Virus record (IMG/VR): IMGVR_UViG_3300028416_000084
Location: 1 to 23,673 of that record
DNA length: 23,673 nt
Source: a virus
Strand: one strand, 5' to 3'
The position numbers and the translations under genes were made by a program. Below the pieces are notes generated by a model. The model did not search any database. It was not told the origin of the DNA and was given only the letters and a program-made list of their open reading frames with translations. Shown here piece after piece: positions 7,379 through 23,673 of this stretch; within the stretch, counting starts at the first letter, position 1; each line of letters begins with the position of its first letter.

Positions 7379-8968
7379 TCACAGTCTGAGGCCGTCGTCT
7401 TCATAGTAAAAATCTTCGCCACTATCAACAAAGCCAAAAGGTAACAGTTCCTCCTCAATTTGTTCTTCTGTCTTCTCTCGTAACTTTATAAGTGTATTTA
7501 TGTCAGTCATATCTTTGAAATATGCCTGTTCAGTCATCCATGCGAATAGAACAAGGTTCATAACCAAATCGTCATGAAATCCTGACTCTGCTTCATATGA
7601 ATTAGCCTTTTTAGAGAATCGACTAATCTCTTGTATTGTATCAAAATCTTGAATAATAAGTTGGTTTTGTTCAATTAACATTTTAAGCATACTGCAGCCA
7701 GTTGCTTTAACATTTTTGGTTGTTCGTATTCCATTATCTACTTTTTTACCAAACCCACCAGTAAGCATTTTACCAGAGCGTCCGTTATTTGCGGTATATA
7801 GTATATTGTCATAACCATAATCCATTAAGAGAACATCAGCAACCTGTTCTCCGATATCGTTAACTTCAATTAAAACTGCAGCAGTATTATATACTTGGCC
7901 TATTCTATAAACAACTGATGCAAAGTCAATTGGTCCGACCATGTTATCTCTAAAGACCGCCACTTGTTTATATGGCATTTCGGTAATATCAATTACTGAA
8001 AAACATGAATAGTCTAAACCTTTACCACGAGCAACATCGACCGTCATACAATACTGTCTTTCTTTAATCGGCTTTTCGTATTGTATAAAACCATCAAGCT
8101 GCGCTATTGGTGTTGCGTGTAATAATTCTTTTAGTTTCCAACCTGCGATAAGAGTACCAGAACTACCTAGAAATTGGCAGCAGTATTCTTGGTTGAATTT
8201 TTCTTCGTCGTGGTCTAATGCTTCGATCGTTTCCTTACGCCATTTTTCATCTCGACCCGGAACATCATGCCACATAACCTCTTCATATTCGTAACCGTTA
8301 CTACCCTCTTTTGCGCCAGTACATGTTTTCCAAAAATGGTTTAATCCATTTGGAGTAGAAGTCATTAAAAGTTTTGTTGACTCGCCAGACGAAATAGTAG
8401 GATAAACAGATGCGAAAAATTCGTCGTATCCTTCAATAAATGCAACCTCATCGAGATATAGAAAATTAACAGACTTACCACGAATAGCACTTGACGATGT
8501 AGTACCTGCCAAAACTTGACAACCATTCTCAAGTGCAATGTTTCCTTTGTTCCATTCTTCAACCCCTTGTTGCAGCCATTTAGGTAATGCCTCAAATGCA
8601 AGCTTAACTCTTGCCATAACTTCTCGAGCAGCGTCACCTTTGTTAGCCAAAATAGCAACAGTTTTAAATTCGTTAAATAAAACATAGTGTAAAATGATAG
8701 CCATCGCCGTGGTTGTTTTACCAGACTGACGTGCCGTTAAAACTGCTAGGCGCCTATTGTCTGTAATTTTCCGCGTAATGTTTTCTTGGTAATCGTACAT
8801 CTTAAATGGAACTAATCCTTTATCAACGTGTACAATTTTAATATAGTTTTTCGCAAAGTAAATAGGATCTTGTGCGCATTTCATGTACTCCTTTAAAAGT
8901 TCAGGAGACCATTCTATCTCTTCACCAATCCTTTTAAGATTTGAGTTTCCTAAATAACCATCAGCCAT
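7379..8968 (-). CDS. gp17: Terminase large subunit gp17
   Basis: A 529-aa DNA-packaging motor ATPase and headful nuclease. The N-terminal ATPase shows Walker A (ARQSGKTT, about 79-86), Walker B with catalytic Glu (FLYLDE, about 169-174) and the coupling motif TSTP (203-206). The C-terminal RNase H-like nuclease shows its three acidic residues in MTVDVARG (D311), VLIEVND (E368) and GFHDDLVM (D466/D467). T4 gp17 is 610 aa; this one is shorter but has every key motif. It docks on the gp20 portal and works with gp16. The start overlaps the end of gene 16 by 8 bases, which suggests translational coupling. Confidence 0.98.
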   Translation of the reverse strand: MADGYLGNSNLKRIGEEIEWSPELLKEYMKCAQDPIYFAKNYIKIVHVDKGLVPFKMYDYQENITRKITDNRRLAVLTARQSGKTTTAMAIILHYVLFNEFKTVAILANKGDAAREVMARVKLAFEALPKWLQQGVEEWNKGNIALENGCQVLAGTTSSSAIRGKSVNFLYLDEVAFIEGYDEFFASVYPTISSGESTKLLMTSTPNGLNHFWKTCTGAKEGSNGYEYEEVMWHDVPGRDEKWRKETIEALDHDEEKFNQEYCCQFLGSSGTLIAGWKLKELLHATPIAQLDGFIQYEKPIKERQYCMTVDVARGKGLDYSCFSVIDITEMPYKQVAVFRDNMVGPIDFASVVYRIGQVYNTAAVLIEVNDIGEQVADVLLMDYGYDNILYTANNGRSGKMLTGGFGKKVDNGIRTTKNVKATGCSMLKMLIEQNQLIIQDFDTIQEISRFSKKANSYEAESGFHDDLVMNLVLFAWMTEQAYFKDMTDINTLIKLREKTEEQIEEELLPFGFVDSGEDFYYEDDGLRL

Positions 8969-13321: not shown

Positions 13322-13912
13322 TTAGTTTCTAACTTCAGCATAAGTTAAACCAATATTTTTTAGTTTTATATTGTTTGGTTCTGATGTTCTACGTATAAGA
13401 ACATTATTTTCTTTAGTATTTGTCAGCTCTATAGAATTTGGACCAGACCGTGCTCTATTTGTAAGCGTATAGTTAATTACTGTTGAATTAAGAGCAAACC
13501 CAAATGCTCCTGTAGTTTGACCCAACGAGAATTGCGCCATAGTACCGGATATTGTAATTGGGAATATTATATCTGCACCACCAGAAATTACTGAGAAACC
13601 ACTTGAAGAAGCAGTAAAGTCAATTTCATTATTGCCAGAATATAAGTAACTCTGTATACCAAACTCAATACGAGCAGGTTCAGTCAAAGTAAATGGTATA
13701 GTTCCACTAAATTCACCGTATACCGTCGGGGTCTCAACGGCAACTTGAACATCAAATGTTAAGGTTTGATTTAATTCAGCAAGTACTGGTACAAAAACAT
13801 CAGAACTAAATGTATAGTCAAATGTACTAGAAGCCTCTCCAGCGATAGTTGAAAAACCACCTCCAAAGAAGCTTAAATCTAGTGTTGATGTAAATACGCC
13901 ATTTGCGGACAT
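13322..13912 (-). CDS. Beta-rich probable virion protein of unknown family
   Basis: A 196-aa protein I do not recognise. It is rich in Ser, Thr, Gly, Phe and Ile, with alternating hydrophobic strands and almost no predicted helix or charge until the last 40 residues, where a more polar segment (RARSGPNSIELTNTKENNVLIRRTSEPNNIKLKN) resembles a repeated strand-turn motif. There is no signal peptide or membrane segment. This composition is common in phage tail-fibre, spike and decoration proteins. It follows the 135-aa gene by 11 bases with an AAGGA ribosome site and precedes the BppU-like gene, so it belongs to the late virion operon. Its structural role is inferred from context. Confidence 0.6.
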   Translation of the reverse strand: MSANGVFTSTLDLSFFGGGFSTIAGEASSTFDYTFSSDVFVPVLAELNQTLTFDVQVAVETPTVYGEFSGTIPFTLTEPARIEFGIQSYLYSGNNEIDFTASSSGFSVISGGADIIFPITISGTMAQFSLGQTTGAFGFALNSTVINYTLTNRARSGPNSIELTNTKENNVLIRRTSEPNNIKLKNIGLTYAEVRN

Positions 13913-14439: not shown

Positions 14440-15213
14440 TTATCTTCGTTCAATATCATCTTCCGATAGAGTATTTCCCATCCATACTTCAATTACTTTG
14501 ACTGGACGGTCGCCAACATTGGTCGCGTGATGCCAACATTTTACTGGAATATCAATACTGTCACCGGTTTTATATACTTTAGATGTAGAGTAACCATTAT
14601 TAAATTCTAAATCCATTTTTAATTCACCATCAACGATATGCCAATGTTCGGAACGAACAAAATGGCGTTGGTCTGATAATGATTTACCAACATCAACCGA
14701 TAACTCTTTTACTTTCCAATGACCATTTTGGTCTAAGTCTCTATATTTACCCCATAGTCTTTGCGTTGTTGGCTTATCCCATTCCTTTAGGATCCACGAT
14801 GAACTGTTCTTTTTATCTTCACCACCAACTCCAAACATAAACGATACATTACACTCATCACGTAATTCTTTAGCAAACTCTACTTCTGGCGTTGTTCCTT
14901 TTTTACGATCACCGCCATTAACAAATATGATTTCTGAATTTCGTGGAGCTTGTTTTGCTACATACCGAATAGCATCACATGCAGTATCGTCTGAGTCATC
15001 AAAAGTAAATACATGGCCTACACAGCCAAGTTCTTTAATAATAGCCATGCGTTCTTCAACAGACATAAAAGGTTTACCCTTTTTACGAGTTAACCATTCA
15101 TCGCTGTTTACGCCAACAAACAAAATACTACCAAGTTCTTTTGCTGCTTTAAAATATTCAATATGTCCTGAGTGTAGGGGATCAAACCCACCTGTACAAA
15201 TTACCGGTTTCAT
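14440..15213 (-). CDS. Cytidylyltransferase-like nucleotidyltransferase fused to a ManC-type cupin
   Basis: A 257-aa two-domain protein. Residues 1-140 are a nucleotidyltransferase of the cytidylyltransferase/RfaE-C type: GGFDPLHSGH (8-17) holds the HxGH nucleotide-binding motif, with NSDEWLTRKKG and a C-terminal SSSWI comparable to the family's second motif. Such enzymes activate sugar- or polyol-phosphates as nucleotide conjugates. Residues about 165-245 are a cupin like the C-terminal domain of type II phosphomannose isomerase/ManC (VKELSVDVGKSLSDQRHFVRSEHWHIVDG, then PVKCWHHATN). I start at ATG 15213 (GGAG upstream, TAATG overlap with the previous gene) rather than an in-frame TTG at 15243. 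The substrate is unknown. Confidence 0.82.
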   Translation of the reverse strand: MKPVICTGGFDPLHSGHIEYFKAAKELGSILFVGVNSDEWLTRKKGKPFMSVEERMAIIKELGCVGHVFTFDDSDDTACDAIRYVAKQAPRNSEIIFVNGGDRKKGTTPEVEFAKELRDECNVSFMFGVGGEDKKNSSSWILKEWDKPTTQRLWGKYRDLDQNGHWKVKELSVDVGKSLSDQRHFVRSEHWHIVDGELKMDLEFNNGYSTSKVYKTGDSIDIPVKCWHHATNVGDRPVKVIEVWMGNTLSEDDIERR

Positions 15214-16445
15214 TACATTCTCTCCTTCATCATATAATTCCAAGCAAAATTGGTCTTTTTGTTTGTACGCATATTTTGGTTAACAAACCCGGGATGTACC
15301 CACCAATCTTCGTACGCATTTGTTTCATCAACTGCAACATTTGGTACTAACAATATATATCCAATTTCTTTTAGTATTTTTCTGGTCTTATCTTTAAGAT
15401 CCGATCCCCACCAACATTCGTTGTGTTGAATTTGAATTATTGAAAACTCATATTCGTTAAATGGTATATTTTCTAATGTTACTAAAGATGCGTTATCTGC
15501 ATTGATACGTAAAAAATCTACGTGTTGTTCAATACAGTTTTGTTTAAATAAATCTTTAAAGTTAACTTGACTCGCATCAGCAAGAACCGCGGTTGTGTTA
15601 CGTTTCCTACTAAATATAGCGCACATTCTTTCAGAAACATCAACTGATAAGCCTTTCCAGCCAAAGTCTTTTTCTAATAGGTATGTATTATTAAACAATG
15701 TCGGGTGACCTGATCCTACTTCAATAAACGTGCCATTCTTTTTACCATTTAAAGTTGATAAAACAAACATATCTTGGAAGTGACGAGAATAGTTTTTCTT
15801 TACTTTATCTAAACCATCAAATGTAAATTTATATTTACTACTTTCAGCATCGGTATATGGCAGTGTACTAGGATAGCCAACTTGACTTATCCACCAATCA
15901 ACGCTTTCGCGCATTTCTTTATTCATATCTAATTTACGTTTATGTTTTAAATCAAAGAATAAATTTTTAGAGTCATCTCGCCCATCTGATTTCCATTTAG
16001 ATACAGCAAAGCAATATTCTAAACCAACTGATCCGGGATAATCTAATTCTTTATTTGGTTCAACGTCTTCGCAATCCATACCCATTTTGGCGTACATCGC
16101 TCCATCTCTAAAATTACTTTGTTCTATTGAATATTTAGCAGCCCAATAATAAGCCTCTGGTCTCGCAGGTAAAACTGATATGGCACTTTTAATTAAACCG
16201 TTAACCGTTTGATTTCTGGCTTCTGATCTGGCAAACAATGCAGCGCCAAGTACCATACATCTATACTGAAGTTCTTTTTCTTCGTCTGTTTCACCTTCGC
16301 AAAAATCTGCAGCACGTAAATACCAGCCAAAGGCAGCAGCACCTTGTTTTAATTTATCATATTCTTTTGCCAAATTAAACATTTTAAAAGGATTATCATA
16401 ATCCATAATAACATCATGCAATAACTGTTTATTTTTAAATATCAT
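15213..16445 (-). CDS. TPR-like N terminus with FkbM-type methyltransferase-like domain
   Basis: A 410-aa protein. Residues about 15-150 are helical with TPR-like spacing (FKMFNLAKEYDKLKQGAAAFGWYLRAADF; ARPEAYYWAAKYSIEQSNFRDGAMYAKMGM), a layout common in glycan-related proteins. Residues about 205-370 resemble FkbM methyltransferases: GTFIEVGSGHP (238-248) as SAM motif I, FGWKGLSVDVS (261-271), then VDFLRINADNAS (309-320) where the family usually has 'idfLkIDvEG'. That key motif is altered here, so activity is uncertain. The start overlaps the end of the GH130-like gene by 4 bases (ATGA), and the stop overlaps the next start by 1 base. It probably acts with its neighbours in glycan modification. 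Confidence 0.75.
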   Translation of the reverse strand: MIFKNKQLLHDVIMDYDNPFKMFNLAKEYDKLKQGAAAFGWYLRAADFCEGETDEEKELQYRCMVLGAALFARSEARNQTVNGLIKSAISVLPARPEAYYWAAKYSIEQSNFRDGAMYAKMGMDCEDVEPNKELDYPGSVGLEYCFAVSKWKSDGRDDSKNLFFDLKHKRKLDMNKEMRESVDWWISQVGYPSTLPYTDAESSKYKFTFDGLDKVKKNYSRHFQDMFVLSTLNGKKNGTFIEVGSGHPTLFNNTYLLEKDFGWKGLSVDVSERMCAIFSRKRNTTAVLADASQVNFKDLFKQNCIEQHVDFLRINADNASLVTLENIPFNEYEFSIIQIQHNECWWGSDLKDKTRKILKEIGYILLVPNVAVDETNAYEDWWVHPGFVNQNMRTNKKTNFAWNYMMKERM

Positions 16446-17485
16446 ATTTCACCCATAGCCAAAAAGTTAGCAAACACTGTTTTAGGCAGCTTTAATATAT
16501 AAGAAGCGTTATCCTGCCATCCATAAGATATTAGAATGTCGTCCCCTATTATCGCAACACCAGTAACAAACTCAATATTATAATCCTGACCTTTTACGTG
16601 GTCGTAATACGTTCCCATAAAATGGAATTCTCTAGACTTATGAACAATATTCCAATCGTTATCCCAGATAATTACTCGATGCGCATAGTTACCATCTTTT
16701 CTACCAAAAGGATCTCTTAGTAAATTTGTTTCGTGGATAAATGCCATTCGCTGGTTATCGTTAATACGAATAACTTGTGAACCACCTCTAAAGTCTTTAT
16801 TGGCTTCCATATATTTGTCTTTATCATATACCGCGTCTTCAGTTGTTTGCGTTTCAATATCGTATTTGATAACTTGTGTTGGGTTAGTCCATTTAACAAA
16901 GTGGTATGGCATATCAAGTATTGGCATCCAATTCTTTTCGCAATATGATTTATCACCATTTGGAGAAGGAATAGGATTACGAGAAACCTCTGTCCATTGA
17001 CCATCAATAAATTCAATCTCTGCCATTTCCATACGACCACGGCCTTTATCATCATAACAATCTCTGCGTACACCACATAGGAACATTCTATCTTCCCAAC
17101 TAAATAGTCGGCAATCTTCTAAACCAATAAAGTTCCATGTCGGCTTACCTGTATCTAAAGCCATATGAACACGCTGTGCGTTGACCATATTTAAATTACT
17201 GTCAAGTTCGCACATAACATTATGAGTTGTAAGTGTTACATCATTTTCTGGATGTATGTACACCAAAGGACCCCACTGATGAGGAAACTTTTTACCTTCG
17301 CTGTGATATAGATAATAGTTAACGTGTCTTACGTTAATAAAGAGTTTATCTTTGTGCTGAAAAACCGAGGGATTCATAATCCCAGTTTCATTACCAAGTA
17401 CTTCTGTTGGTATGATAATAGGATGGATTGAACCACCTCGTTTTAAAGCATATGTGGCCAAGCCACCCATGTGCAAATCGTGCAT
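16442..17485 (-). CDS. GH130-like five-bladed beta-propeller protein
   Basis: A 347-aa protein with motifs of the GH130/beta-mannoside phosphorylase-like propeller superfamily: MNPSVF (37-42), GLEDCRLF (121-128; compare 'GxEDPR' in GH130), EKNWMPI (183-189), RGGSQVI (233-239), EFVTGVAI (305-312) and the closing ISYGWQDNASYILKLP (319-334). Members hydrolyse or phosphorolyse mannose-containing glycans, and related domains occur attached to bacterial glycosyltransferases. There is no signal peptide. GGAG lies just before ATG 17485. It overlaps the TPR-FkbM gene by 4 bases, so both are coexpressed. The fold assignment is fairly secure; substrate and catalysis are not. Confidence 0.72.
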   Translation of the reverse strand: MHDLHMGGLATYALKRGGSIHPIIIPTEVLGNETGIMNPSVFQHKDKLFINVRHVNYYLYHSEGKKFPHQWGPLVYIHPENDVTLTTHNVMCELDSNLNMVNAQRVHMALDTGKPTWNFIGLEDCRLFSWEDRMFLCGVRRDCYDDKGRGRMEMAEIEFIDGQWTEVSRNPIPSPNGDKSYCEKNWMPILDMPYHFVKWTNPTQVIKYDIETQTTEDAVYDKDKYMEANKDFRGGSQVIRINDNQRMAFIHETNLLRDPFGRKDGNYAHRVIIWDNDWNIVHKSREFHFMGTYYDHVKGQDYNIEFVTGVAIIGDDILISYGWQDNASYILKLPKTVFANFLAMGEI

Positions 17486-18301: not shown

Positions 18302-18865
18302 TTACCCACCGCGATACAAATATAAGTCAACCGGTACACATATTCTAAGACTAGAATAATAAGGATTGACGTGGTGGTATGTAAAGCTTGGAAATATCAT
18401 AAAATCTCCAGTTTTTGGTGTGATTGCTTTTTTATCAAATACATCGTTCCACCAATCATCGTAGCCACGATTTGCGTTTGTTCTTGGATCTGAAAAAACA
18501 ATATCGCCACCAGAGTTTTGGTCTTCAGCTAGTATATAAAATACACCAGACAAATGAGCACCTGAGTGATTATGTATAGTCATGTTATAATCTTTTCCAT
18601 GACCAGTAATCCACGCTTTCATCTCGTGCGCTTTATAATCTGTAATATGTTTTCCAATGCTTGCATAGAGATAGCGATCAAAGTTGCTATATACCATGTC
18701 TTTAAATTTATTCATTTCATCTGAATTATCTTTGAATATATTTCCACCGTTTACTTCACCTTCCATGTTATTTAAATCATAGTTAGTAAAAATATATTCT
18801 ATTAATCCATCAGTATCAAATTTTCCTGAGCCAATCTTTGTTGGCCACATTTCTTTAAATTCCAT
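18302..18865 (-). CDS. 2-oxoglutarate/Fe(II)-dependent oxygenase (prolyl-hydroxylase-like)
   Basis: A 187-aa double-stranded beta-helix oxygenase of the small phage/marine type (2OG-FeII_Oxy_5-like). The core reads HNHSGAHLSGVFYIL (98-112), which carries metal-ligand candidates, then GGDIVFSDPR (119-128), GDFMIFPSFTYHHVNP (153-168) with the distal His, and SSLRICVPVDL (171-181) with the Arg expected to bind the 2OG carboxylate. Such enzymes hydroxylate peptides, proteins or small molecules; the substrate is not evident. It has GGAG before the ATG and its own late promoter, and it diverges from the plus-strand radical SAM cluster. Confidence 0.85.
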   Translation of the reverse strand: MEFKEMWPTKIGSGKFDTDGLIEYIFTNYDLNNMEGEVNGGNIFKDNSDEMNKFKDMVYSNFDRYLYASIGKHITDYKAHEMKAWITGHGKDYNMTIHNHSGAHLSGVFYILAEDQNSGGDIVFSDPRTNANRGYDDWWNDVFDKKAITPKTGDFMIFPSFTYHHVNPYYSSLRICVPVDLYLYRGG

Positions 18866-18891: not shown

Positions 18892-18899
18892 TATTTATA
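18892..18899 (-). promoter_or_regulatory. T4-type late promoter for the 2OG oxygenase
   Basis: Perfect TATAAATA on the minus strand, 26 bases upstream of ATG 18865. It lies back to back with the rightward sigma70-type promoter, so this 110-base gap is an early/late divergent control region. Confidence 0.72.
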
Positions 18900-18911
18900 A
18901 CATATAACTGG

Positions 18912-18940
18912 TTGACATATTCGCTTCTTTGTGGTATTAT
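18912..18940 (+). promoter_or_regulatory. Sigma70/early-type promoter for the radical SAM operon
   Basis: TTGACA (18912-18917), a 17-base spacer and TATTAT (18935-18940), with TGTGG just before the -10. Extended TGTG elements are a feature of T4-type early promoters read by unmodified host polymerase. The ATG follows about 35 bases downstream of the -10. Confidence 0.8.
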
Positions 18941-18975
18941 AAATACATATCGTATATTACCATTGGAACTACATT

Positions 18976-19446
18976 ATGATAGAAACATTTGAAGAATTTG
19001 AAAACTGGTTAATGACAGAAGAATGCTTTGAGAACCATGATGTATCTCATATAGATAATAACGGCAATCAACATTATTTAGAACATTCAGAATACATTTC
19101 TTACCTTGGTGCTATTACAATTTTATTAGCAAACAAAGCTACGATTAAAGTAGAACAAGCCGAGCAATGGTTTCCACATATAGCTGGAACTGCACACATC
19201 TTCTATAACAATGACAATGGTCCATCGTTTGATACTCACACGGATCCTATAGATATTTTAATAGAGTGCATAGCCGGTAAAAAGACTTTAGAAATAGATG
19301 GTAAAGAATATACACTAGGACCTCGCGACAAAATTGGTATTGCTAAAAATACTAAACACAGAGCACTTAATTATGAAAAGGCATTGATGATCTCATATGG
19401 CATTGGCGATACAGAAACACTTACTCGTATACGTAAAAACGACTGA
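18976..19446 (+). CDS. Small cupin/JmjC-like protein with an HxD...H iron-site pattern
   Basis: A 156-aa single-domain beta-barrel protein. The segment PSFDTHTDPIDILIECIAGKKTLEIDG (83-109) resembles the JmjC/Cupin_4 signature 'HxDxxdvlvlQlxGxKxW', with H88 and D90 as the first two metal ligands. GIAKNTKHRALN (121-132) supplies H128 as the distal ligand. I see no certain 2OG-binding residue, so it could be an oxygenase or a metal cupin. It is the first gene after the early promoter (GGAA before the ATG), and its last 50 bases overlap the first radical SAM gene, which argues for coordinated translation and a shared pathway. Confidence 0.7.
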   Translation: MIETFEEFENWLMTEECFENHDVSHIDNNGNQHYLEHSEYISYLGAITILLANKATIKVEQAEQWFPHIAGTAHIFYNNDNGPSFDTHTDPIDILIECIAGKKTLEIDGKEYTLGPRDKIGIAKNTKHRALNYEKALMISYGIGDTETLTRIRKND

Positions 19447-20425
19447 AACCTGCAATCTTAATTGCGCACACTGCTTTACGTCTGGTATTAACGGTAGAAA
19501 AATCTACTTTGATGCTGAAAAGACTGCTAAGTGGTGTAATGAGTTGTGTGATGGTACAAACGAAATACATTTTGAATACCACGGTGGTGAACCTTTATTA
19601 GCACCTATGGCAGACCTAATGAAGTTTTATAATATTACTAAAGAACATTGGGGTGACCGATGTACGCATGGTATTACAACTAATTTGGTTTATAAACTTA
19701 CTGATGAAAGACTTGAGTTTTTAAAATTATTAGATGGTGGTTCTGTAGGCACATCTTGGGATCCAAACATTAGGTTCTCTAACGAAAAGCAGCGTAAACT
19801 ATGGGAAGACAATGTAAAACGTTTAGTTGACGAAGGATGTTTTGTTAAATGTTTTATATCAGTCTCAAAAGATGTAGTTAAAATGGATCCGCTTGAAATA
19901 GCTGACTATATGCATTCATTAGGTGTTGAGTGTATAAACTATGAGCGTTTAACACATGATGGTAATGCAACAATTAACTTAGATATTTTTCCGCATAACA
20001 GTGAGTTAGATGCCTTTTGGATGAAGATGCACGAAACTACACAAGACCATCCTGTAGCCAATGCGTTTCTTGGTTCTGTTTATGATAAGTTTAGTAAAGG
20101 ACAATTTTTTAACGGAACTTTTTGTAGAGACTGCGAACAAAAATTACATACCATCAATGCCGATGGGACTGTAGCCGGTTGTCCTAACACTGCACCAACT
20201 CAATGGTATGGTACTATTGATACTCCTGCAAAAGAAGTTCGTCAATCGCCAAAACGTATGGAAGTTATATCATGTGAAATGCACGAAAGAGATCCACGCT
20301 GTTATGATTGTCCTGTGTTTATATATTGCCATTCTGATTGTCACCAACTTCAATGGATGGAAGATGTTTGCCCAGCACCTAAAACATTAATGATGAAACT
20401 TGCAAAGGATAAGGGATGGATTTAA
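19397..20425 (+). CDS. Radical SAM/SPASM protein 1
   Basis: A 342-aa radical SAM enzyme. CNLNCAHC (19-26) is the CxxxCxxC motif for the [4Fe-4S] cluster that cleaves SAM. EYHGGEP is the GGE motif that holds SAM's amino group, and TTNL follows on the next strand. The C terminus is SPASM-like, with auxiliary-cluster cysteines in FCRDCEQKLHTINADGTVAGCP and CYDCPVFIYCHSDCHQ plus a later VCP. SPASM enzymes generally modify ribosomal peptides or proteins. There is no N-terminal RRE domain: the catalytic core starts almost at once. The ATG lies inside the cupin gene (50-base overlap), and no later ATG could keep the motif. The substrate is unknown. Confidence 0.92.
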   Translation: MALAIQKHLLVYVKTTETCNLNCAHCFTSGINGRKIYFDAEKTAKWCNELCDGTNEIHFEYHGGEPLLAPMADLMKFYNITKEHWGDRCTHGITTNLVYKLTDERLEFLKLLDGGSVGTSWDPNIRFSNEKQRKLWEDNVKRLVDEGCFVKCFISVSKDVVKMDPLEIADYMHSLGVECINYERLTHDGNATINLDIFPHNSELDAFWMKMHETTQDHPVANAFLGSVYDKFSKGQFFNGTFCRDCEQKLHTINADGTVAGCPNTAPTQWYGTIDTPAKEVRQSPKRMEVISCEMHERDPRCYDCPVFIYCHSDCHQLQWMEDVCPAPKTLMMKLAKDKGWI

Positions 20426-21456
20426 TTATTAAACCAACAGAGGCTTGTAATTTCAAGTGTACCTTCTGTTCATCAACTGATATTGATGCTGATAAGGCTG
20501 GTTTACTTGATTTAGAATATGTTTATAAATTTCTAAAACGCTATCCTGACACCAATACGATTATTGTAAATGGTGGTGATCCGTTAATGGTTGATCCAAA
20601 ATGGTATTGGGATTTGATTGCTCACCTTGACGAACACGATTACCCTGCATCAATTAGTTTTACATCAAATCTTTGGCCATTCCTTATTAGACCAGAGAAA
20701 TGGTTACCTTTATTTAAACACGAAAGATTTGGATGTACTACATCATTTCAATATGGTGGTGGAAGATTAAAAGGTGATTACTCTGAGTTTACTGAAAAAG
20801 ATTTTTGGCGGGTATCAGATGCTATGTTAAAACATACTGGTGAACGTCCAAGTTTTATTTCTGTAATCGTTGATGAAAACTTTGATGATGCAATTAAAAA
20901 TGTAGAGCTTGCTAAAGAAATGGGAGTTGAATGTAAACTTAATTACGCTATGGCTTCTGGCGTACAAGGTTCTACGTTTAGGCTAAGTAAAATATACGAA
21001 ACCTATATAAAGATATATGATATGGGCTTAGCAGAATATGAACACAATACTAAACAAATGATGGTAAGATTAAATAAAAATAGTTACACCTCTTGCCCAC
21101 AGAATAGGCAATGCGATAGTGGTATTCGTGCATTTAATCCGGGTGGTGATTACTATTCTTGTGGTTCGTTTGCTGACGATTACGATTACCCTATTAATTT
21201 TGAAGAAGAGATGAATGGTGAAATGCAGACACCATTGCAGAATGATCCTAATATACAGACAATGAAAATGGCTTGTTATACATGTCCAATGTTTGATATA
21301 TGTAATGGTTGTAAGAAAACTGTACGTGATATGAAACGCGAAGGTCAAGCTGAGGATCATTGTTATCATATGAAAAAACTAGCACCAAGAATACTTGAAA
21401 TAAACGGAATGGATCCGGGATTGGCGACACCTTATGTTAATGAATCTATCAATTAA
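20416..21456 (+). CDS. Radical SAM/SPASM protein 2
   Basis: A 346-aa radical SAM enzyme: CNFKCTFC at 11-18, VNGGDPLM as a GGD variant of the GGE motif, and FTSNLWP on the next strand. The SPASM-like C terminus has QCDSGIRAFNPGGDYYSC, then CYTCPMFDICNGCKK and a final HCYHM cysteine, enough for auxiliary Fe-S clusters. The start overlaps protein 1 by 10 bases; AAGG lies upstream. It is clearly distinct in sequence from its neighbours, so the cluster is not a recent tandem duplication. The short N terminus leaves no room for a peptide-recognition domain. Confidence 0.92.
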   Translation: MDLIIKPTEACNFKCTFCSSTDIDADKAGLLDLEYVYKFLKRYPDTNTIIVNGGDPLMVDPKWYWDLIAHLDEHDYPASISFTSNLWPFLIRPEKWLPLFKHERFGCTTSFQYGGGRLKGDYSEFTEKDFWRVSDAMLKHTGERPSFISVIVDENFDDAIKNVELAKEMGVECKLNYAMASGVQGSTFRLSKIYETYIKIYDMGLAEYEHNTKQMMVRLNKNSYTSCPQNRQCDSGIRAFNPGGDYYSCGSFADDYDYPINFEEEMNGEMQTPLQNDPNIQTMKMACYTCPMFDICNGCKKTVRDMKREGQAEDHCYHMKKLAPRILEINGMDPGLATPYVNESIN

Positions 21457-22348
21457 TCCAACATACTATTGTAACTTTGCTTGTGATTTCTGTTATTTAA
21501 CTACAGAGCAATTAAACGATAGACATAAAATTACTCCTTTATGGTTAGAAAACAGCCTACAACAAATTACTGACAAGGTTGGTCATGTTGATTTATATGG
21601 TGGAGAGATTGGTTTACTATCGCCAGAATATTATTATTCATTAAAGAAAGTAATACGCAATCATTATAAAGGTCCTATTAATATCAATACTAACTTATCG
21701 GCATTCCCTGACTTTTTTAGAGATGAGGATGTAACGTTATCCGTATCATATGATTTCCATGCCAGAGAAAAAGAGCAGCACATTTTAAATAACATGATGA
21801 ATGCCAATAAAGATTTATCTGTATTGATATTAGCCTCGCCAAAAGTATTAGAGATGGATGTAGAGTTTATGATCTTTACGCTTAATATGATTTCTAATGT
21901 TCAGTCAGTTGAAATTAAACCATATTCAATTAATCAAGCAAACCAACATAATGTAACACATAAAGACTTTGAAGATTTCGTTATTAAGTTTGATGAAGCA
22001 AATACAGAAAAGAATTTTAATTTCCAAAACATTGATAATATATACAATAGCATAGAAGGTAAGTATGATGCTTTTAGTAATGACCACGTTTACATAACGC
22101 CACGTGGAAAATTTGGCGTCTTGGAATTTGATAAATATGATAGAGAATACTTTAAAGAGTACGACACTTACCATGAATATTTAACGTGGGCACGTGAAGA
22201 ACCTGAGAATAATTTGAGCGATATATGTAAGGCATGTTCTTATTATGGGAAATGTTTAACAGAACATTATCGGTATGTACACGACTTAACCAATAGTTGT
22301 AATGGATATAAAGGGTTATTAGATTATTATGAAAGAATGGAAAGCTAG
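21434..22348 (+). CDS. Radical SAM protein 3 with Cys-rich C terminus
   Basis: A 304-aa radical SAM enzyme: CNFACDFCY at 13-21, LYGGEIGLL as the GGE motif and NINTNLS on the next strand. The C terminus has ICKACSYYGKCLTEHYRYV and then SCNGY, a reduced SPASM/twitch-like pattern with fewer cysteines than proteins 1 and 2. A 23-base overlap joins it to protein 2. A second ATG (21440) is possible and changes only two residues. The overlap with the next gene is 20 bases. It may hold only one auxiliary cluster. Confidence 0.9.
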   Translation: MLMNLSINPTYYCNFACDFCYLTTEQLNDRHKITPLWLENSLQQITDKVGHVDLYGGEIGLLSPEYYYSLKKVIRNHYKGPININTNLSAFPDFFRDEDVTLSVSYDFHAREKEQHILNNMMNANKDLSVLILASPKVLEMDVEFMIFTLNMISNVQSVEIKPYSINQANQHNVTHKDFEDFVIKFDEANTEKNFNFQNIDNIYNSIEGKYDAFSNDHVYITPRGKFGVLEFDKYDREYFKEYDTYHEYLTWAREEPENNLSDICKACSYYGKCLTEHYRYVHDLTNSCNGYKGLLDYYERMES

Positions 22349-22727
22349 GCAAAGCGCATATCATTTAACGGCATCGTTGTTTAAAGATGATCTGACTGAC
22401 GTAGAAATTAATTGGCAGCCAGATAATATTGTTGATTATGCTCTTATACATTTCAGAGAATATGTTGACGAATGGATTTATCCTGCAAAATCATATGTGG
22501 TTGCGATATGTTATGCGCATTGGTTAAACAGAGATTTTAAAGAACCATTCTTTGATGCGCTTAATGACGAAGCTTTATTGTTTAATAACGATCCACACTT
22601 TGTTCCATATTGGCAAGACAAAGATACATATGACGAAATATTATTTAAATTAGACTTTAACGAAAAACTTGGTATGGTACCTGACATATACGAATACTAT
22701 AAAGAGGAAATGTTATTTGGACTTTGA
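22329..22727 (+). CDS. Unknown 132-aa protein inside the radical SAM operon
   Basis: I do not recognise this family. It is an acidic, aromatic-rich protein, probably mostly helical, with many Trp and Tyr (EYVDEWIYPAKSYVVAICYAHWLN around 44-67; FVPYWQDKDTYDE around 91-103) and a single Cys. It has no signal peptide, no membrane segment and no leader/core look of a RiPP precursor. It overlaps radical SAM 3 by 20 bases and radical SAM 4 by 11 bases, so it is translated as part of the set. It could be a partner or adaptor (for example peptide-binding) or a substrate; this is inference from position. Confidence 0.7.
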   Translation: MKEWKARQSAYHLTASLFKDDLTDVEINWQPDNIVDYALIHFREYVDEWIYPAKSYVVAICYAHWLNRDFKEPFFDALNDEALLFNNDPHFVPYWQDKDTYDEILFKLDFNEKLGMVPDIYEYYKEEMLFGL

Positions 22728-23673
22728 AATAACAAAAACACTATTAGAAACTAAACGTCCGGATATAGCCGAGATTGAGTTGACTTTATTTGAAAACTGT
22801 CATCTCAATTGTTCGTTCTGTCACCACGATAAAAAATCTACCGTAGGTTTGAGCAGGGAAGAGATATTTTCTAAATTAGATTTGGTTGAACAACATGTCA
22901 TTAAGATGAAAGGCAGAGTTGATATAATACAAATCAATATGGTTGGTGGCGAGTTATTCCAAGATAGAATATCAGAATGGGCTTACCCTGTTTACTTTGA
23001 TTTTTTAGTAGCAATCAAAAAGATATTTGATGAACATAAACAAAAGATTAAAGTTGTATGGGTAACATCGTTTCAATTCAGTAAACGAGATAGAGTTCAG
23101 CGACTACTCGACGACTTAAACGCTGAAGCTATCCCTTCCTATATTATATGTTCATACGATTTTGACGGGCGACCAACAAAAGGTCCATACGCTAAAAATA
23201 TAGAATACTTTGCTGATTATATCATATCTATTAATATGGTTGCTACTACTTTGTCAATCAAAAAGTTTATGGCAGACGACGATGAGTATTTCCATTACTT
23301 ATATGAAAAGTTTGATGAATTTTACTTTGATGATTATATTCCAGATCGTGGATATGATTATATGATTCCATCAGATAGTGAGTACCTCGAGTTTTTAAAA
23401 TTTGTATACCATCACTATCCTGACATTAACCCTATTAAAGATCTCATATATAATGAGAGTAACCATATGCATTGCTTGGCTTTAAACAAGGTTACGATAT
23501 TCCCAGATAATTCTACATCAAATTGTCGGTGGGATAGATACGATCAACGAGATTTTAATACAGAATACAAACCTAAAGATAACGCCGGAATGATGCAAGC
23601 CTATATGGACGAGAATGGTTGCTTATCTTGTAAGTGGTGGAATAAATGTGGTTTCCGCTGCTATACACAATGG
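22717..23673 (+). CDS. Radical SAM protein 4 (truncated by window end)
   Basis: An open frame of 319 codons runs to the last base of the window without a stop. CHLNCSFC (28-35) is the CxxxCxxC motif; NMVGGELFQ carries the GGE motif; VTSFQFS lies on the following strand. Near the end, HCLALNKVTIFPDNSTSNC and then CLSCKWWNKCGFRCY look like SPASM auxiliary-cluster cysteines, so little more than the C-terminal tail is missing. No ATG precedes the motif. TTG at 22717, with GAGG 9 bases upstream and an 11-base overlap with the 132-aa gene, is the best start. It has about 15 extra residues before the barrel compared with proteins 2 and 3. Confidence 0.88.
   Translation, partial: MDFEITKTLLETKRPDIAEIELTLFENCHLNCSFCHHDKKSTVGLSREEIFSKLDLVEQHVIKMKGRVDIIQINMVGGELFQDRISEWAYPVYFDFLVAIKKIFDEHKQKIKVVWVTSFQFSKRDRVQRLLDDLNAEAIPSYIICSYDFDGRPTKGPYAKNIEYFADYIISINMVATTLSIKKFMADDDEYFHYLYEKFDEFYFDDYIPDRGYDYMIPSDSEYLEFLKFVYHHYPDINPIKDLIYNESNHMHCLALNKVTIFPDNSTSNCRWDRYDQRDFNTEYKPKDNAGMMQAYMDENGCLSCKWWNKCGFRCYTQW

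Follow-up and report, generated by a model that had tools for sequence, protein, structure and literature searches.

A multi-enzyme radical SAM cassette of phages and its candidate substrate, a protein with a C-terminal Cys/His/Ser tail

The window analysed here, a virus record of 23,673 bases, carries at its right end a cupin-like gene (CUP), three complete radical SAM (rSAM) genes (R1, R2 and R3), a small gene (U132) and a fourth rSAM gene (R4). These rSAM genes are about half of a widespread and previously undescribed set of up to nine, which goes together with genes for a protein, named TAIL, that ends in a Cys/His/Ser-rich tail. We consider it likely that the tail protein is the substrate of the rSAM enzymes; that it is associated with the fibre or the virion is rather probable, and that it is both, with a role in attachment, is at best moderately favoured. 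On balance, the genes are read as a late-expressed island whose enzymes would act on the Cys/His/Ser tail of an attachment protein associated with the fibre.

The first gene, CUP (18976-19446, plus strand), encodes a small cupin-like protein and adjoins R1 in most loci. R1 (19397-20425, plus strand) and R2 (20416-21456, plus strand) encode predicted radical SAM/SPASM enzymes, R1 with a full auxiliary cysteine set and R2 as the member with the highest conservation (55-60% identical to jumbo phages). The radical SAM protein R3 (21434-22348, plus strand) has one auxiliary-cluster cysteine set (C265, C268, C274 and C289). U132 (22329-22727, plus strand; phrog_20737) encodes a small protein and is co-conserved 3' of R3 in phages and Bdellovibrionota. 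R4 (22717-23673, plus strand), again of predicted radical SAM/SPASM type, is cut by the window end and is complete in locus L007, where it ends at 13378. This confirmed the ORF layout given by the original prediction (four divergent rSAM genes in tandem, with one cupin-like and one unknown gene), and its description of the phage as T4-like agrees with the structural genes in the window. Its "cupin-oxygenase" did not hold as a single gene: the cupin has only a sub-threshold Cupin_2 match (E 2.5e-5), and the oxygenase is encoded apart from it, by a 2OG-Fe(II) gene of the minus strand (18302-18865; PF13759, phrog_81). In nearly all relatives from the window's group this gene adjoins the cassette in divergent orientation, and it is a possible cassette member. 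Next to it, two tandem DUF7936 proteins (PF25590; 17515-18244, minus strand) are kept beside the cassette in the window's group. A conserved trio (14440-17485, minus strand), formed by a fused cytidylyltransferase/mannose-6-phosphate-isomerase-like cupin, a 410-aa FkbM-like protein and a 347-aa protein, stands where other relatives carry a GT25 gene.

Both hallmarks of the radical SAM superfamily, the CxxxCxxC motif and a GGE-type SAM-binding motif, are present in R1-R4 and were invariant in each of the four families (alignments of 18-20 members), R2 having GGD. The Pfam Radical_SAM model was above its cut-off for R2 only and sub-threshold for R1 (E 2e-5), R3 (1e-5) and R4 (5e-3), and all four proteins matched PHROG 1802, a radical-SAM family (E 2e-55 to 2e-18). 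The SPASM subfamily was recognised by its C-terminal cysteines, about seven in number, which would bind two auxiliary 4Fe-4S clusters. A full SPASM-type cysteine set, conserved at 96% or more, was found in the alignments of R1, R2 and R4, which are predicted members of this subfamily. Four conserved auxiliary cysteines only, short of the SPASM set and indicating a single-cluster type, were found in R3 and in the Rc and Rd families, to which five extra enzymes beyond the window belong. Thus, the earlier assignment of SPASM to each of the four enzymes stands for R1, R2 and R4 and falls for R3. The best mutual match among R1-R4 was only 28% identity over 90 aa and there has therefore been no recent duplication, in agreement with the earlier view of strongly differing, distinct enzymes. 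In some phages there is also a B12-binding rSAM, which is closest to KedN5-type methyltransferases.

Among solved structures, the profiles of R1 and R2 aligned nearly full length to the anaerobic sulfatase-maturating enzyme (anSME; PDB, E about 1e-7 to 1e-6), which is also the nearest solved fold for R2. Single R1 and R2 proteins gave no match in phmmer searches of the PDB, whereas the profiles did. R3 showed similarity to PDB entries in the core only, and the profile search with R4 found no relative among solved structures. The best NCBIfam matches of R1 and R2 were the RiPP maturases DarE and DynA, with all equivalog models far below cut-off.

A 64-kb contig (G001) includes the window at 99.99% identity. 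In this contig R4 is followed by one unknown gene, by four rSAM-type genes on the other strand (L007) and then by c19, c22 and a fifth rSAM, giving a total of nine rSAM genes and two tail proteins in the same phage. Phages of the window's group have the set divided into two halves that converge, with c19 and c22 in the places that c30 and c51 hold elsewhere; by eye, the two pairs look related. Upstream of the last rSAM lie two tandem genes (L109, 17633-18013 and 18013-18396) for proteins of 126 and 127 aa. Their products end in YYCHASCHSSCHSSRGRR and YYCHASCHTSCHSSRGRR, both terminating in CHASCHxSCHSSRGRR, and the genes are directly 3' of a 2,798-aa ORF in which a tail-fibre domain was matched (phrog_19602, E 4e-10). 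The expectation that the cluster runs past the window with more members was therefore borne out by five more rSAMs and two tail proteins, and the reported lack of a precursor was an artefact of the window end, since a candidate substrate lies just outside it and in every cassette-bearing record tested.

The TAIL motif can be written as (C-H-[small]-[S/N])x3-R-G-R-R, i.e. (CHxS)3-RGRR, placed right at the stop codon. The DNA pattern for CHxxCHxxC was present, in 1-2 copies each, in 18/18 cassette-bearing records, which had been fetched through the cassette enzymes and include the jumbo phages Atu_ph07, Phosso, DT01 and FLC6; the reversed-pattern control gave 0. A blind scan of IMG/VR DNA with the pattern CHxxCHxxCHxxRxRR retrieved at least 120 viral stretches, and 137 of 139 in-frame matches finished exactly at the stop codon, among the matches listed. 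The in-frame viral matches in L173 and L176, which did not end at a stop, were rejected as simple-sequence runs. The C, H and R positions were fixed by the search pattern and their invariance is built in; the pattern-free positions were still conserved (S 92%, S/N 98%, S 88% and G 92%, among the matches listed), whereas the TAIL body reached about 1 bit per column with 0.3% Cys (same matches). Loci reached through R2, without the pattern, carry the same tail. A tblastn search of phage records with the tail peptide gave no match, perhaps as a result of the low-complexity filter. One variant, a tail ORF on the minus strand of L150 (near 8109-8155), has a four-unit tail, CHSNCHSNCHSNCHTNRSRR, in an rSAM-rich neighbourhood where no c30 gene was recognised.

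Among the matches listed, an rSAM gene was found in the fetched stretch at 117/124 TAIL-ORF loci (103/109 viral and 14/15 genomic), and most of the seven loci lacking it are short stretches or end near the tail gene. In the control, cassette genes occurred at 1/73 genomic chance-match loci without a tail ORF; this locus, L241, is a real Bacteriovoracaceae system in which the ORF had been miscalled. The TAIL proteins are 100-300 aa long. The model of the tail protein (pLDDT 79) shows a beta hairpin as well as helices, one of them long, and its tail helix is held only loosely; its fold matched nothing, including any known fibre tip, in the PDB or among viral structures. The c30 model (pLDDT 93) also matched nothing in the PDB, and no RRE-like fold was recognised in it.

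One question raised by this linkage is whether TAIL is a RiPP precursor, whose modified C-terminal peptide would be cleaved off and set free to act as an antibacterial, as a signal or in superinfection exclusion. A linked precursor-like protein with a conserved modifiable core is indeed present (117/124 loci among the matches listed, 18/18 cassette records), clusters of many rSAM enzymes that come with a Cys-rich C-terminal core are typical of RiPPs, RiPP maturases are the best NCBIfam matches of R1 and R2, and one bacterial copy (L339) has adjoining ABC-transporter genes. However, proteolytic release and export find no counterpart in the phage operons, where no recurring cassette peptidase or exporter was detected, and the TAIL body is large (median 186 aa) and of fibre-like composition, unlike a short leader. 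In addition, gp170, the tail protein of Atu_ph07, falls within a virion-protein block. We regard a released peptide as unlikely, and favour a modified tail that stays on its protein.

The position of the tail genes points to the fibre. When phage genomes were searched for a conserved gene order, as the original prediction had proposed, the order fibre-cupin-R1-TAIL-c30-R4-R2-R3 was found to recur; the common operon reads fibre-CUP-R1-TAIL-c30-c51-R4-(B12-rSAM)-R2-R3-U132-2OG. R1 is directly upstream of TAIL in 72 cases and c30 directly downstream in 79 (among the matches listed). Of the 57 loci with enough flank, 43 encode a fibre C-terminal domain upstream in the same orientation; in 34/55 loci it lies directly 5' of the cupin gene. 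In Atu_ph07, gp170 is the first CDS of the 170-215 block, and the accessible text of Attai et al. places most virion proteins identified by mass spectrometry in CDS 31-76, 170-215 and 284-329 (PMC6102473). The numbering was checked against the annotations of the baseplate (gp181), portal (gp198) and prohead (gp204). As far as this text goes, gp170 itself may be among the proteins detected in virions.

Two further features of these operons were observed. In the relatives L042 (5655-7583, minus strand) and L111 (2740-3813, minus strand), a fused GT25/PLOD-type glycosyltransferase with a weak 2OG-oxygenase match occurs together with a collagen-repeat tail fibre, which is encoded directly upstream of the tail proteins; the two form a phage counterpart of collagen lysyl hydroxylation/glycosylation. 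The Burkholderia phages FLC6 and SURPRISE13 have dihydrofolate-reductase-like genes inside the cassette (L114, 10216-11428; FLC6 gp77-gp78).

The gene order also bears on whether the tail is modified at all. The CHxxCHxxCH tail could bind metal unmodified instead, since three evenly spaced CH pairs could chelate it, and a metal-binding, Fe-S-binding or disulfide tip would leave the rSAM enzymes to some other target, such as a fibre protein, a glycan or a host factor; the glycan and collagen-modifying genes of the neighbourhood fit this explanation. Against it, most loci have TAIL within the rSAM operon, flanked by R1 and c30, and TAIL and the rSAMs occur together wherever the flanks are of sufficient length for a judgement. 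An unmodified tip consequently seems to us a minor candidate, with a low probability, beside a tail that is acted on by the enzymes.

The cassette promoter (18912-18945, plus strand) combines a sigma70-like TTGACA-17-TATTAT element with an overlapping T4-late element, TATAAATA (18938-18945). The sigma70-type promoter claimed before the cassette is present (18912-18940, 11/12 positions matching, about 30 nt 5' of the cupin gene), and the T4-late element overlaps its -10 box. A further copy at 18892-18899 (minus strand) is the T4-type late promoter element of the 2OG gene. The window holds 10 copies of this element versus 4 expected, several of them just upstream of structural genes. The early expression proposed in the original prediction was not upheld, since the cassette promoter holds TATAAATA like the promoters of the adjoining late structural genes; late expression is the better reading of the promoter sequence. 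The same evidence weighs on the proposal that the enzymes serve defence, counter-defence or early modification of a host protein, for which the sigma70-like promoter and a generic similarity to the viperin core might speak. The PADLOC result amounted to weak generic radical-SAM core similarity to viperins, the late element overlaps the promoter, the genes sit with tail-fibre genes and a dedicated substrate candidate is encoded by the phage itself. Hence, a role in defence or on host proteins is very improbable, and modification of the phage's own tail protein is preferred.

C-terminal tails were also found with the DNA pattern in bacterial assemblies. Some of these copies (Rhodobacteraceae, Rickettsiales and Euryarchaeota bins) are probably phage contigs binned with bacteria. 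The Bdellovibrionota copies are in chromosomal contexts, several of them mid-contig (contigs of 63-382 kb), and their distribution is patchy (5/129 genomes in the order of G015). Peptidase_S74, the intramolecular chaperone of phage tail spikes, was a neighbour in four scanned Bdellovibrionota loci. Three of the four S74 proteins match the prepilin N-terminal methylation motif (two above and one just below the Pfam cut-off), and the fourth has a prepilin-like start, as seen by eye. Prepilin-like proteins with the S74 fibre chaperone are encoded at L338 (6654-8323), L339 (14955-16704) and L340 (1628-3528), and small proteins ending in GRHWVxVK adjoin them. These prepilin-like S74 proteins look like a membrane-anchored tail-fibre-like adhesin. 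Given the S74 neighbours in Bdellovibrionota and the fibre linkage in phages, the set therefore adjoins fibre-like contact proteins in both.

Taken as a whole, the window would show one half, the left one, of a phage island for protein modification that is expressed late. In this island R1-R4 and the five further rSAMs would act on the dedicated TAIL protein, probably with the cupin, U132, c30/c19 and c22/c51 as accessory helpers, to which many phages add a 2OG oxygenase and an enzyme like a B12-rSAM methylase. Cys, His and Ser of the tail would be the obvious targets. The product is probably on or near the fibre, as its gene runs in line with the tail-fibre gene, and the modified tail (carrying, for example, Cys/His/Ser cross-links, thioethers, or oxidised Cys or Ser) would face the host surface, where it might help the phage to attach or form a tip that is stable or reactive. 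Bdellovibrionota may use a related set beside their membrane-anchored fibre-like adhesin, and these phages and some predatory bacteria probably modify an attachment protein chemically. The multi-step modification of a protein by distinct enzymes, as predicted, is supported as an interpretation. Nine rSAMs for one 16-residue tail are extravagant, and some may therefore act elsewhere, on other residues or proteins. A wider claim, that phages and predatory bacteria share a multi-rSAM line by which a fibre-type adhesin receives a new kind of modified Cys/His/Ser tip, one that no described virion modification resembles, is advanced tentatively, and we hold it to be somewhat doubtful. If the main reading is right, rSAM chemistry would be a new addition to virion proteins, the tail fibres of phages would be connected with the prey-contact structures of predatory bacteria, and a large source of new peptide-modifying enzymes would open up, some of them in cultivated Agrobacterium, Sinorhizobium, Pseudomonas and Burkholderia phages.

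We compared the cassette with known systems. The anSME, a SPASM enzyme (PDB 4K36-4K39), is like R1 and R2 in its nearly full-length profile alignment and modifies a protein, not a small molecule; it differs in being very distant (31-35 bits), and here 4-9 enzymes occur together. Membership in the anSME family was rejected (TIGR03942, 33-42 bits against a cut-off of 349; no sulfatase seen in the cluster or nearby). Such enzymes read a CxPxR motif, which the last unit of TAIL, CH[GST]SR, loosely resembles; formylglycine at this unit would be an idea drawn only from that weak similarity. The rSAM RiPP systems (darobactin DarE, dynobactin DynA, sacti- and ranthipeptides) share tandem SPASM enzymes and a dedicated Cys-containing C-terminal core, but here no peptidase or exporter was found, no RRE-like fold was recognised in the c30 model, the substrate body is large and the context is that of tail fibres; membership with DarE or DynA was rejected on the equivalog cut-offs. 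The His-Xaa-Ser system (HxsA/HxsB/HxsC/HxsD) has in common HxS repeats in a putative substrate and two or more rSAMs, and was rejected as well (no HxsA match; R1 31 and R2 23 bits against HxsB/HxsC cut-offs of 370 and 268). Viperin (pVip) membership was likewise rejected (N-terminal core only, 20-29 bits; NCBIfam viperin model 17-22 bits against 180).

The Campylobacter phages CP220 and CPt10 have 11-12 rSAMs (PMC2853527), many in a T4-like phage as here, but their set is a different, sugar-like one. An amidinotransferase and sugar transferases accompany that cluster, which PMC2853527 interprets as metabolic; together with the glycan-type genes nearby in the window, it is what would suggest that our enzymes make a surface sugar, a cofactor or a nucleotide. 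However, CP220 was rejected as a member (one weak match to the cassette families, no tail motif in the 49 kb examined), the glycan genes are swapped for others in relatives while the rSAM set stays, and R1 and R2 align to a protein-modifying enzyme, so that an auxiliary metabolic pathway appears improbable. As to the original prediction's concern that the same genes might belong to a described pathway, the His-Xaa-Ser, anSME, DarE/DynA and viperin comparisons all remained below their cut-offs, and the Campylobacter set is homologous in no more than the one weak match.

Two more phage clusters resemble the cassette. Aeromonas phage 332-Vera has 8 rSAM genes in its structural region, called unusual (PMC12390700), and the host-recognition cluster of pelagimyophages contains rSAMs (PMC7029224); in both, multiple rSAMs lie in tail/host-recognition clusters, for which no substrate, motif or function was proposed there. 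Among open-licence journal papers, none was found that names a substrate or the TAIL motif. Judged from their published descriptions, both clusters are probably the same system as the cassette described here, and rSAM-rich phages, an unexplained oddity noted several times since 2010, become a testable system with a substrate candidate and a motif.
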